From the NCBI RefSeq assembly GCF_007752535.1, contig NZ_CP036426.1, positions 2,480,001-2,544,000 of the forward strand: a DNA stretch of 64,000 bases. Reading direction: 5' to 3'. Below are positions 57,163 through 64,000 of the stretch, one piece after another. The position numbers and the translations under genes were made by a program. This DNA is from Tautonia plasticadhaerens. GTDB taxonomy: Bacteria > Planctomycetota > Planctomycetia > Isosphaerales > Isosphaeraceae. Numbering within the stretch: position 1 is the first letter of the stretch; each line of letters begins with the position of its first letter. A model generated the notes under the pieces. The model ran no database searches, was not told where the DNA came from, and saw only the letters and a program-made list of their open reading frames with translations.

Positions 57163-58026
57163 TCAGTCGAGCGACTGGCCGAGGGCGTAGACCTGCTCGG
57201 CGTCGAGGACCAGGTCGTTGGTCGAGAAGAGTTCCTTGATCGCGCGGGCATGGATCCGCATCTTCGTGCCGCCGACGCCGATCGCGCCCCAGGCCCGCAC
57301 GCCCCCCCGGTCGGCGTCCCGGTCGTGGACCTCGATCCCCTCGATCCCCAGCGGTGGCACGGCGTTCAGGTCGATCATCGCCCGCAAGGCGGCCAGGCCC
57401 GACCGGACCGACCCCGGCAGCAGCGTGACGCCCGTCGACCCGGCGGCGACGACGACCTCGCACCCCTCCAGGCCCGAGGCGAGCGAGGCGGCGTCGGCGG
57501 CGGCGAACGGCGAGAGCTCGGTGCCGGTCGCCTCGCCGATCGACCGGGCGACGGCTTCCGCCCGATCGAGGGTCCGGGACGACACGGCCACCGCCGCCCC
57601 TTCCCTCGCCAGGAGCCGGGCCACCCGACGACCGACCGGGCCGGTCGCGGCCAGCACGGCCGCCTTCTTGCCCCGGAGCGAGCCGTCGAGCCCCCGCTTG
57701 GCGGCCAGCACGGCGGCGGCGGCCGTGGTGTTCGCGCCGTTGGGGTCGAGCAGCACCGAGACCCGGAACGGGCCGAAGAATGCCCCGGTCGCCGCCCGGA
57801 GCAGGGCTTCGGCCTTCTCCACGTCGGTGCCGCCGATGAACAGGGCGGTCCGCTTCAGGTCCTCCGGCCCCCGGGTGAAGAGGCCGCCGTACACGAGGTC
57901 CCGCACCTGATCGGGGGTCACCCCCCCGTGCCGGAACAGGTGATCGACCCCCGCATCCACGGCGACGACGGCGTCGAAGACGCTGGGCTGCGGGTCGGCG
58001 TCGAGCTGGATCAGGATCGTCTTCAT
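57163..58026 (-). CDS. methylene-tetrahydromethanopterin dehydrogenase (Mtd family)
   Basis: The enzyme oxidises methylene-H4MPT to methenyl-H4MPT with NAD(P). The 287 residues match the MtdA/B/C size. Visible are FIGGTDVEKAEALL (about 63-76), FGPFRVSVLLDPNGANTTAAAAVLA (about 84-108), the NAD-binding GKKAAVLAATGPVGRRVARLLAREGA (about 118-143), SSRTLDRAEAVA and DLNAVPPLGIEGIE. Whether it is an MtdB- or MtdC-type cannot be told by eye. It stands 109 bp after fae and 30 bp before the DUF1464 gene, so the three form one operon. Confidence 0.9.
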   Translation of the reverse strand: MKTILIQLDADPQPSVFDAVVAVDAGVDHLFRHGGVTPDQVRDLVYGGLFTRGPEDLKRTALFIGGTDVEKAEALLRAATGAFFGPFRVSVLLDPNGANTTAAAAVLAAKRGLDGSLRGKKAAVLAATGPVGRRVARLLAREGAAVAVSSRTLDRAEAVARSIGEATGTELSPFAAADAASLASGLEGCEVVVAAGSTGVTLLPGSVRSGLAALRAMIDLNAVPPLGIEGIEVHDRDADRGGVRAWGAIGVGGTKMRIHARAIKELFSTNDLVLDAEQVYALGQSLD

Positions 58027-58135: not shown

Positions 58136-58642
58136 TCAGGAGGCGAATGGGTGGCTGGCCGAGTCCTTCTTGGAGACGACCTCGGAGATGGTCGGCTCGC
58201 CCTTCAAGGCCCTCTGGATGGAGAGCTTGGTGGCCTCGTAGTTGTACTGGTTGATCTTGGCCTTGTCGGTGGCGGCGGGGTGGATGAACACGCCGCAGAC
58301 GATGCAGAGATCCTCGGCCTTGTCCTGCGGGATGGTGCCGTCGGCCACGCAGTCGGCCACGGCCTTGGCCACGGCGTACTGGGCCGGACCGAACATCAGG
58401 ACCGCCTGGTCCAGGCCCTCGATCGTCACCTTGGTGATCAGGACGGTGGCCGGCTTGACCGCCAGGTTCGGCTCCAGCACGGCCAGCAGGCTGGTGTGCC
58501 CCTTCGACTGGTTGGCCAGCGCGTTGGCGAACGCCGCGCCCACCGGGCCGGTCTTGGTGCCGATCATCAGGTCGATGTGGGCGACCTCGTTGCCGTCTCC
58601 GACGAGGGCCTCTCCGATGAGCAGGGTGTGATCGCTGGCCAT
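58136..58642 (-). CDS. fae: formaldehyde-activating enzyme
   Basis: Fae joins formaldehyde and tetrahydromethanopterin to methylene-H4MPT. The 168 residues include the catalytic His in [28 protein letters not shown] (H22) and [41 protein letters not shown]. The end [33 protein letters not shown] is also typical. It is the first gene of the C1 operon. Its ~100-base leader starts at one arm of a 27-bp inverted repeat that carries an extended -10. Confidence 0.96.
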
Positions 58643-58731: not shown

Positions 58732-58863
58732 GGGGGTCGCTCGGCTGGCATGATAACAAGCCCGGCCCGACCCGCAAGGCCCCGGCGGGGGAGGTGAGCC
58801 CGCGCGGGGCCGCAGCGGATCGAGCGCGGGCAGGCCTGTTATCATGCCAGCCGAGCGACCCCC
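58732..58863. promoter_or_regulatory. perfect 27-bp inverted repeat holding two identical divergent promoters
   Basis: Bases 58732-58758 are the exact reverse complement of 58837-58863, with 78 bp between. Read outward, each arm starts TGTTATCAT, which matches an extended -10 (TGnTATAAT with one change), followed by the same 18 bases as the first transcribed region. The left arm faces fae (start 58642), the right arm the ATP-grasp gene (start 58908). The two divergent units thus share the same core promoter and initial leader. Confidence 0.6.
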
Positions 58864-58907: not shown

Positions 58908-60095
58908 ATGGGATGGTCCCCGATCCTCCCGCAACCCGGAGCCATCCCCAGCGTGTCCGCCCCCTTGCTGATCCTCGGCGCCAGCGTCCGGGCCCTGGCG
59001 TCCTCGGCCCTCCGAGCCGGGTTCGACCCCGTCGCCGTCGACCTGTTCGCCGATGATGACCTCGCCGCGTCCTGCCCCGCCCGGCGGGTCGACCCGGCCG
59101 CCTACCCGGCCGACCTCCCGAGGATCGCCGCCGAATGCCCCCCCGGCCCCTGGATGTACACCGGGGCGCTGGAGAACCACCCGGGGGTGATCGACCGGAT
59201 CGCCGCCGACCGCCCCCTGTGGGGGGTCGACGGGCCGACGCTCCGACGCGTCCGGGACCCGATCGCCCTGGCCGACGCCCTGCGAAGGGCCCGGCTCCCG
59301 GCGCTCGACGTGGCCCTCGACCCCGACGGCCTCCCCCCGGACGGCACCTGGCTGGTCAAGCCGATCCGGTCGGCCGCCGGGGCGGGAATCCGGCCGTTCC
59401 TGGGGAGCGAGCGGGGGCCGACGGGCTCGGCCTACTTCCAGCGATTCCAGCCCGGGAAGAGCGGCTCGGCCCTCTTCGTGGGAGAGAACGGATCGGCCCG
59501 GCTGGTCGGGGTGACCCGGCAGCGGATCGGTCGGGTCGGCTCCCCGTTCGGCTACCTCGGCAGCGAGGGGCCGATCTGGCCCCCGGTCGCGATGCGAGCG
59601 CAGCTCGGCCGGACGGGCTCGACCCTGGCCGAGGCGTTCGGGCTCCGGGGCCTCTTCGGCGTGGACTTCGTGGCCGACGGCGGGATCGCCTGGCCGACGG
59701 AGGTCAACCCGAGGTACACGGCCTCGGTCGAGGTGATCGAGTACGCGACCGGCCTCGCCTTGCTCCGGGAGCACGCCCGGGCCTTCGGCGCCGGGGTCGA
59801 GGGGCACGGAACTTGCCTCGATTCCGACCGCCGGTTCGCCTGCAAGGTCGTCGTCTTCGCGGACCGGGACGGGACCGTCCCGGCCTCGCACCGCTGGCCG
59901 AGGTTCGATCCCACGTCGCCAGAACCGCCGCCGGTCGCCGACCTGCCGGCCCCCGGCTCCTCCTTCCGGGCCGGACAGCCGGTGCTGACGCTCCTGGAGC
60001 GTGCCGAGGATGCCCGGGACTGTCGTCGGAGGATCGCACGGAGGCTGCGAGGGTGGCGGGAAATCCTCGCCGGGTGGTCGACCCTCGACGACTGA
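58908..60095 (+). CDS. ATP-grasp family ligase linked to the C1 cluster
   Basis: The protein is 395 residues from the ATG at 58908; a GTG at 58953 with GGAG nearby is an alternative that starts the homologous part ([23 protein letters not shown]). The ATP-grasp core is in [20 protein letters not shown] (about 142-161), [14 protein letters not shown] and [29 protein letters not shown] (about 247-275), with the metal Glu-x-Asn in EVNPR. Proteins of this type sit in H4MPT gene clusters (orfY-like) and are thought to work in cofactor synthesis, possibly adding an amino acid. The duplicated promoter with fae supports the link. Confidence 0.85.
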
Positions 60096-60983: not shown

Positions 60984-61220
60984 ACTGTTTCGCTCCGCGC
61001 TCTCTCTGTCGGCTCCCGGGCGGCTCAGACGAGCTTGACCAGCACAAACGTGATGTCGTCGTCCTGGTGCCCGTCGCCCCGGTAGTCGAGCAGGGCGGCG
61101 GTGATCGCGTCGGCGATCTGCTGGGAGGGGGCGTCTCGGTGGTCGCGGATGACCTCCCGGAGCCGATCCTTGCCGAACTCGACCCCGTCGGGGGAGCGCG
61201 TCTCCCAGATGCCGTCGGTG

Positions 61221-61231
61221 CCGACCAGCAG
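61221..61231. repeat. left copy of the insertion site direct repeat
   Basis: CCGACCAGCAG at 61221-61231 is repeated at 62757-62767, directly outside the insertion sequence ends. Both copies encode LLVG in the split phosphatase, which fits a target-site duplication of 11 bp. Confidence 0.8.
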
Positions 61232-62756
61232 GGAGGGCGTCTCGTTTGTAGGTGGAATCAGTTCGGTGTGGGGCACCAGAAGGCGTCCCACTGCCGATCT
61301 CCGCTCTTGAACAACGCCCGCAAGTGGCTCAGGGCGTCGGCCCCGTCGGCGCCCCACCTCATCCCCGAGCCCTTCATCCGCTGCCCGATGACCGTCTTGC
61401 ACGCCGCCTCCACCGGCCCCGAGCCGATCGCCCAACCCTTGGCCACGTAGCCCGGGTAGTCCATGCGGTGCGCCTGGTTGGTGAAGTACCGCACCACCTC
61501 CGCTCGTGCTTCCTTCGCCGCGTGGCCGCGCACCTCCAGGCCTCGCAACGCCTCGAGTACGGTCGGGCCGCCCTCGTATTTCAGCCGGTGGCACCAGTCG
61601 CCCAGCCAGCCCTCCCGCGCTTCGTCGTCGCCCGGGAACAGGGCGCGGGCCAGGCCCCCCAGGTATTCGGCGGCGTGGTAGAAGTCGAGGATCACCGCCT
61701 CGACCCTCCCGAAGTTGGCACGCGCCCAGCCCTCCAGCCCGCTGCCCCCGTCGGTCAGCGCGATCCACCGCTCGGCCCGGTCCATCCCCACCTGCGCCGC
61801 CTGCCGCCGGAGCGGCTCGCCCAGGGGGGCCACGCCGCACAGCCCCGCCACGTAGCGGGCCCGGAACCGGGGCGGCGGGCCGTCGGGCCGCGCCCGGCGG
61901 GCGGACACCTCGGGGACCGGGTTGTAGACCATCGCCACGGTGGCCATCCGCCCCTCGGCCGACGACCCGCCCTCGCCCTGCTGCCCGACCCCGGTCGCGT
62001 CCGCCGCCACGTACGCGCAGGTCTTGCCCTCGGCGTCCTTGTGCCAGTGCCAGGCGCGGGCCCCGCCGAAGACCTCCCCGGCGGCCAGCCGCCGGCCGAC
62101 CTCGGCCCCGGCCGCCTCGGCGGCCCGCTCGACCGTCGACTCGGCCAGGCGCAGCCCGGCCATCTTCGGCAAGGTCACCTCGGCCGCCTCGGCGAACGCC
62201 GAGAGCGCCCCGGCCAGGCAGGCGACCTCGTAGGCCGCCGGGGTCAGCGCCGCCTCGGGCACCCGCATCACGGCGTCGCCGGGGGCGAAGCCGCCGTGGC
62301 AGTGGGGGCAGTGGTAGTACGCCCGGGTGACCCGTACCGCCCCGAGCAGGCTGACCACCCGGCGGGGACGGTGGCCCATGAACTTGGCCGGCTCGAGGCA
62401 GGTCGGGCAGCTCACGCTCGACCCCCGGTACCCCCCTTTTTCCGCCCGTCGAGGGCGGCCTGAATCGCCTTGGCCCCGGTCTTGTGGACGAGGTCGCGGA
62501 CCTCGTGCTCGGTCTGCCCGAAGAGTCGGTCGTCGCCCCGCGAGGCGAGGAGCTGGGCGATCCGCCAATGGTCCTCCTCGGAGGCGGCGTGGAGGGCCTG
62601 GTAGATCCGCTCGGCGTCGGCGGCCTGCTCCGGGGTCAGGCCCGAATCGGGGGTGCGCATGGCGGGATGTCCGTGCGAGGTTGTGGGTGAAATCCGTCGA
62701 TCCCATCAGCCACCCCTGTTGTACGGGATTTCCCACCTACTTTCGAGACGCCCACC
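61232..62756 (-). mobile_element. ISKra4-type insertion sequence, 1,525 bp
   Basis: The ends are imperfect inverted repeats: GGAGGGCGTCTCG-TTT-GTAGGTGG from the left and GGTGGGCGTCTCG-AAA-GTAGGTGGG from the right (reverse complement). They are flanked by the 11-bp direct repeats. The whole element consists of one transposase unit in two frames. The frame-perfect join of the host gene on removal shows exact ends. Identical or near-identical flanks suggest a fairly recent insertion. Confidence 0.85.
61258..62660 (-). CDS. ISKra4-family transposase in two frames, probable -1 frameshift
   Basis: The first frame (62660-62412) gives RTPDSGLTPEQAADAERIYQALHAASEEDHWRIAQLLASR and the last residues GRKKGGTGGRA. 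The second (in frame with 61258) takes over as EKGGYRGSSVSCPTCLEPAKFMGHRP and runs to the stop. The change falls at a run of A and G (AAAAAGGGGGG, 62431-62441 on the minus strand), where a -1 shift makes a ~467-residue fused protein. It has a CxxC/CxxC zinc finger (CPTC ... CPHC) and DDE residues in YVAADATGV, IALTDGGSGLEGW and SGPVEAACKTVIGQRM. Both frames look intact, so the element may be active. Confidence 0.85.
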
Positions 62757-62767
62757 CCGACCAGCAG
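62757..62767. repeat. right copy of the insertion site direct repeat
   Basis: This 11-bp copy matches 61221-61231 exactly and adjoins the right end of the insertion sequence at 62756. Confidence 0.8.
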
Positions 62768-64000
62768 GATCCGGCCGGGGGCGAGGCCGTCGAGCGAGGC
62801 CTCTCCATAGGTGGAGTCGTCCATCACGCCGAGGGGAAGCCCGTTGATCTCGGGCAATTCGGCGAAGCGGTCGGCCTCGGGGTCGTAGAGGATCGGCTCG
62901 TCGTGGCCGGCGCTGGACCACCGGATGGTCCCGCGGCGGACGTCCACGACCATCAGGATCATGGTCATGAATCGCTCGCCGCCGGTGTCGGCCTCCAGCT
63001 GTCGGTTGACGTGCGTGAGCAATTCGCCCAGCGAACCCGTCTCGGCCGCCCGGCTGCGGAGGATCCCCCGGGCCGTGGCCATCAGCAGCGCCGCGGCCAC
63101 GCCGTGGCCCATCACGTCGCCGAGCACGACGATCAGGTCCCCCTGTGCCGTCTCGTCTAGCTCCAGGAAGTCGTAGTAGTCGCCCCCCGTCTCGTCGCAG
63201 TAGGTGCTGTGCCCGGCGATGTCGAGCCCGGTGATCGCCGGGGGCTCGGCAGGCAGCAGCTTCTGCTGGATCTCCATCGCCAGTGCCAGCGACTGCCGGA
63301 TCTTGAGTCGGTCCTTCAGGTCGCCGGCCATCCGGTTCAGCTCGTCGGAGAGCTGGGCGAACTCCTTCGTCCCCGAGACGGCCACGTGGTGATCGAGGTC
63401 CCCGGAGCCGATCGCCCGGACCCCCTCCACCAGCCGCAACACCGGCCGGACCATCGCCTGCGACGCCACGATCCCCAGGCCGAGCGTGCTGAGCGCCACC
63501 AGCCCGCCGATCAGCCAGGCCCGCCGCCGGACGGCGTCGAGGGCGCCGGTCACCTCCGACTCGGGCACGACGACGACGGTCCTCCAGTCCAGTTCCCAGG
63601 GGTTCTGCAGCGGCTCGACCTCGACGCGGTACCTCTCGCCGTCGATCGGCATCCGGAATCCGAGATGCCGATCGACCTGGCCGAACGAGCCATATTGCGC
63701 CGAGACCCGCCCGTCGACGGCCCGGATGATCGGGTCGTCGGCCTCCGAGGCCGGCACGCGCCCCCCTTCGGGCCGGGCCACGGCCACGTCGGCCGAGGCG
63801 GCGATCAGGTTCCCGTCCGGCCCGACCAGGAACGACTGCCCCGTCTCGGACACCTCGACCGATCGCAGGAACGCCGACAGCCCCAGCAAGGCCAAGTCCG
63901 CCGAGAGCACGCCGATCAGCTCCCCGCCGTCGTCCCGGACGGGACGGCAGTAGGCGATGCCCAGGGTCGAGATCCCCCCGTCACGCCGGACCCAGGGATA

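Follow-up and report, generated by a model that had tools for sequence, protein, structure and literature searches.

The gene for the formaldehyde-activating enzyme, fae, and a divergent ATP-grasp gene in Tautonia plasticadhaerens are separated by an intergenic region in which a 27-bp sequence occurs twice, in opposite orientations and with the same promoter element in each copy. This raises the question of whether the two genes share a regulatory device or whether one copy arose from the other. Below, the window is the entire 64,000-nucleotide stretch of DNA that was analyzed, and positions are counted from its first nucleotide.

A perfect 27-bp inverted repeat between fae and an ATP-grasp gene

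On one side of the intergenic region lies fae (TIGR03126, PF08714; positions 58136 to 58642, minus strand), followed downstream by a methylene-H4MPT dehydrogenase gene (Mpt_N; 57163 to 58026, minus strand). The ATP-grasp_3 gene (58953 to 60095, plus strand) lies on the other; its GTG start is conserved in two further Tautonia genomes, G002 and G003, with an in-frame ATG at 58908 as an alternative. Direct reading of the sequence placed GGGGGTCGCTCGGCTGGCATGATAACA at 58732 to 58758 and its exact reverse complement at 58837 to 58863, with 78 bp separating the arms. When mismatches were allowed, the arms extended inward to 36 nt at 92% identity. The perfect 27-bp repeat with a 78-bp gap described in the initial annotation was thus confirmed, and 40 Markov shuffles of the window produced no perfect close inverted repeat longer than 17 bp, which is also the length of the runner-up in the real window. 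The 27-bp repeat likewise exceeded every other close inverted repeat in a 464-kb sample of the T. plasticadhaerens genome, comprising 20 sampled 20-kb stretches and the window. A few others in this sample measured 20 to 24 bp, and several of them belong to what appears to be a GC-rich palindromic family within the genome, having GGGTGGCCGGGGTC(TCGTC) in common (L147, 511 to 590; L148, 14889 to 15000; L158, 135 to 199).

The whole element (58732 to 58863) is a quasi-palindrome, its outer 27 bp forming a perfect inverted repeat beyond chance level and its interior an imperfect one. Folded as single-stranded DNA it gave a z score of -8.9, and the partly self-complementary interior (58768 to 58827) formed a hairpin with a z score of -2.6. 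A search of the element against Rfam returned no match at E values up to 1, and a search of it for intrinsic terminators found none.

A conserved fae promoter in the Isosphaeraceae

To place the arms in context, the 400 bp upstream of fae was searched at each of 27 Isosphaeraceae loci. A TTG[CT] element followed after 15 to 18 bp, mostly 16 bp, by TAT[C/G]AT was present at 26 of them, T. plasticadhaerens included; shuffled sequences gave 0.08 matches per set and reversed sequences gave none. The family-wide form (L006 to L031) reads GGGTTGCGG, then 15 to 18 bp, then TAT[C/G]AT with a C-rich discriminator. The strict pattern TTGCGG-N16-TAT[C/G]AT matched once in the T. plasticadhaerens genome, at fae, and had few matches per genome in relatives, mostly one or none. 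Relaxing the spacer to 15 to 17 bp added one T. plasticadhaerens match, a site within another open reading frame, and a wider regulon defined by this pattern was therefore rejected. Because the pattern is nearly restricted to fae in this genome, it is, as far as sequence can tell, a conserved fae promoter rather than a motif common to many genes. Promoters of planctomycetes are little known, and that of fae in the Isosphaeraceae, now defined, should be useful for annotation.

Promoter elements in the two arms

In T. plasticadhaerens the fae promoter occupies 58750 to 58777 on the minus strand as TTGCGG-N16-TATCAT. Its -10 element, TATCAT (58750 to 58755), has a TG one base upstream and is thus an extended -10, and its -35 element, TTGCGG (58772 to 58777), lies 16 bp away and outside the repeated arms. 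Arm 1 (58732 to 58758, minus strand), which faces fae, comprises the extended -10 and the next 18 bp of this promoter; arm 2 (58837 to 58863, plus strand), which faces the ATP-grasp gene, repeats it exactly and has its own TATCAT at 58840 to 58845, a candidate -10 for a second promoter. Read outward, both arms are TGTTATCAT-GCCAGCCGAGCGACCCCC, so that each can be written TGTTATCATGCCAGCCGAGCGACCCCC, an extended -10 with 18 further bases. Coordinates, sequence, and gene calls therefore agree with the earlier claim that the same extended -10 faces fae on one side and the ATP-grasp gene on the other. We infer from the sequence that the start-site sequence is likewise identical in both arms.

A recognizable -35 element, TTGCGG, is found on the fae side only. 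The fae arm has the features of a sigma-70-type extended -10 promoter, with a TGnTATAAT-like element at a conserved position and a -35 at 15 to 18 bp. On the ATP-grasp side no TTG-like hexamer was found at 15 to 19 bp; alignment instead placed CAGCGG (58813 to 58818, plus strand), a probable copied remnant of TTGCGG, 21 bp rather than 16 bp from the -10. A simple sigma-70 scan found no promoter on either the fae or the ATP-grasp side, the hexamers being weak relative to the Escherichia coli consensus. Although it lacks a -35, arm 2 could still act as an extended -10 promoter. Its -10 core precedes the ATP-grasp start by approximately 100 nt, and the fae core is similarly far from fae. A rough matrix revealed no better promoter for the ATP-grasp gene in T. 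plasticadhaerens, the sole higher-scoring site having a weak GATGGT -10, and scanning with it for an ATP-grasp promoter conserved among relatives gave no consistent site.

Bidirectional promoters that depend on -10 symmetry (Warman 2021; PMC12825309) resemble this arrangement in that divergent starts are possible from symmetric -10 elements. In such promoters the starts share or straddle one -10 and are commonly 10, 18, or 23 bp apart (PMC12825309). The two -10 elements here (58750 to 58755 and 58840 to 58845) have 84 bp between them, so that each of two RNA polymerases would occupy a site of its own, and the element was not assigned to this class.

Distribution of the second arm among relatives

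The genus was represented by four genomes, T. plasticadhaerens (G000), Tautonia sociabilis (G001), G002, and G003. In the latter three the fae promoter was present and the second arm was absent. Among the 27 family loci, an outward-facing TAT[C/G]AT in the 400 bp preceding fae was found in T. plasticadhaerens only, and the few inverted repeats at fae in relatives were unrelated in sequence, none carrying the promoter core in its arms. The putative reverse-oriented promoter copy in the fae/ATP-grasp intergenic region is thus exclusive to T. plasticadhaerens among the genomes examined, and the second arm is derived. G002 and G003 have the same divergent fae, ATP-grasp, and zinc-peptidase gene order as T. 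plasticadhaerens, with a shorter spacing between fae and the ATP-grasp gene. T. sociabilis is the sister lineage of T. plasticadhaerens (support 92/95); in its genome, unlike those of the three other Tautonia, the pair formed by the ATP-grasp and zinc-peptidase genes has an inverted orientation with respect to fae (L137, 5350 to 8068), and one breakpoint of this inversion lies in the fae/ATP-grasp intergenic region, where T. plasticadhaerens has the repeat. As the gene pair is inverted in this closest relative, the age of the copy is poorly bracketed.

The leader bases AGCCGAGCG are common to both T. plasticadhaerens arms and the single fae promoter of T. sociabilis, and arm 1 therefore predates arm 2, which was copied from it. 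The inner nine bases of the extended arms differ at three positions. As read from the alignment, arm 2 retains the ancestral C before the TG where arm 1 has T, and at the two other positions arm 1 has the T. sociabilis base and arm 2 differs; these differences appear consistent with arm 1 as the source. The second arm is probably an inverted copy of the whole promoter, since similarity continues inward beyond the 27-bp arms. The two halves of the interior align as an inverted copy with 26 of 33 columns identical, a similarity exceeding that of 99.2 to 99.3% of genome 30-mers (0.7 to 0.8% score as high), which is only moderately significant in DNA of 70% GC and limits the copy reading to that extent. 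Arm 2 also fits the T. plasticadhaerens fae promoter better than it fits the fae promoter of any relative.

These comparisons bear on how the repeat was first explained. That such identity would be unexpected for two independent promoters was borne out, one arm being a probable copy of the other. Strict co-regulation was not, as the -35 of the second arm has been lost (CAGCGG at 21 bp versus TTGCGG at 16 bp) and T. sociabilis, G002, and G003 keep only the fae arm, the very finding that the initial annotation had named as speaking against it. With no second arm in any relative examined, the arrangement does not represent a regulatory design kept across the family; the data do not support strict co-regulation as a conserved device, and the inverted repeat provides no evidence for a conserved formaldehyde regulon. 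The proposal of gene conversion came closer: an arm copied from the other stands, with inverted duplication added as the event and homogenization of the arms perhaps following later.

Origin of the second arm

The reading we favor, and hold to be reasonably probable, is that a template switch duplicated the fae promoter in inverted orientation in this lineage alone, giving rise to the 132-bp region, in which arm 2 supplies a candidate promoter for the ATP-grasp gene. A replication fork would have stalled at a GC-rich quasi-palindrome, and the nascent strand would have switched template and copied the fae promoter backward onto the other strand. Subsequently, a further template switch or selection may have preserved identity across the outer 27 bp as the spacer and -35 accumulated changes. 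Arm 2 would then serve as an extended -10 promoter of the ATP-grasp gene, with a start-site sequence identical to that of fae; lacking a -35, it is likely weaker than the fae promoter. Transcription of the ATP-grasp gene from arm 2 is plausible on these grounds. Applying the inner substitution rate (4 in 30) to the outer arms gives a rough P of ~0.02 for zero changes in 27. The outer identity would be explained by selection on the promoter core or by later template-switch homogenization, which is plausible.

In E. coli and yeast, template switching is an established means by which inverted repeats become perfect (PMC7202029, PMC8604942). Like the quasi-palindrome template-switch mutations described there (E. 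coli thyA and lacZ reporters; yeast), the T. plasticadhaerens element is an inverted repeat that matches perfectly over one stretch and imperfectly elsewhere, is missing from close relatives, and has identical arms where copied. It differs in being longer, with 27-bp arms and a spacer of 78 bp versus the yeast-survey limit of 70 bp, and in lying in a promoter, whereas the other cases lie in a reporter or coding gene.

The same mechanism could have left a neutral scar, a genuine inverted copy whose arm 2 drives no transcription and whose perfect identity reflects recent template-switch homogenization only. The broken -35 and lengthened spacer of arm 2 fit this explanation, as does the ability of quasi-palindrome template switching to perfect arms without selection. 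However, what has been kept coincides with the functional core, a complete extended -10 at a plausible distance (approximately 100 nt) from the ATP-grasp start; for that gene the rough matrix showed no better promoter, only the site with the weak GATGGT -10 scoring higher, and we regard a silent arm as a somewhat unlikely outcome. Selection is given a larger part if both arms are operators of one regulator, bound at the extended -10 and start region and co-regulating fae and the ATP-grasp gene. Identity does end exactly at the promoter core and leader, with the spacer and -35 diverged (the P of ~0.02 given above), several other family members also have fae divergent from a nearby ATP-grasp gene, and ATP-grasp ligases function in the methylofuran synthesis of methylotrophs (PMC8141765). 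Yet where relatives carry this divergent gene pair, only the fae-side arm accompanies it. Nor does the strict 16-bp pattern point to a wider regulon, with its single match in T. plasticadhaerens and usually one match or none in each relative; a shared operator, which would then be confined to T. plasticadhaerens, is considered doubtful.

The remaining explanations have little to recommend them. Spacers between perfect inverted repeats can invert by recombination or intermolecular template switching, and it is conceivable, though very unlikely, that the perfect arms let the 78-bp middle invert in this way and move the single -35 from fae to the ATP-grasp gene; if so, the inversion would be a two-state switch between the divergent genes. 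Inverted duplications may also be produced during library preparation, and the repeat is known from a single genome. Nevertheless, the assembly consists of complete replicons (9,395,224 bp in six; PMC7716859), and the inner parts of the arms differ by several substitutions and indels, unlike a fold-back product, leaving a sequencing or assembly artifact scarcely credible. With 132 bp and 27-bp terminal inverted repeats, the element has the right shape for a small MITE-like mobile element. It is nevertheless present as a single copy in the 9.4-Mb genome, no flanking direct repeat or target site duplication was found, viral contigs gave no match and plasmids only a 33-bp match at chance level, and one of its arms is none other than the ancestral fae promoter; a MITE or transposon remnant was rejected, its probability being negligible.

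An inverted promoter duplication at this locus, known from one T. plasticadhaerens strain, ElP, would be a clean natural example of how one local replication error could equip a neighboring gene with an existing promoter core whose ancestral version is still recognizable throughout the family.

Gene context of fae

The planctomycete fae/H4MPT clusters compared have in common fae, the methylene-H4MPT dehydrogenase gene, and a DUF1464 gene. The divergent ATP-grasp gene is common to T. plasticadhaerens, two other Tautonia genomes, and several other Isosphaeraceae, and the mirrored promoter core is found in T. plasticadhaerens only. A second, distant fae homolog with 39% identity is located elsewhere in the T. 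plasticadhaerens genome (G000:C1:4213864-4214364) and is also present in many relatives. Beyond the ATP-grasp gene, a transposase-like open reading frame (61258 to 62736, minus strand) apparently splits a gene with a SpoIIE/PP2C-like phosphatase domain (61025 to 63910 of the window), as judged by eye from the translations.
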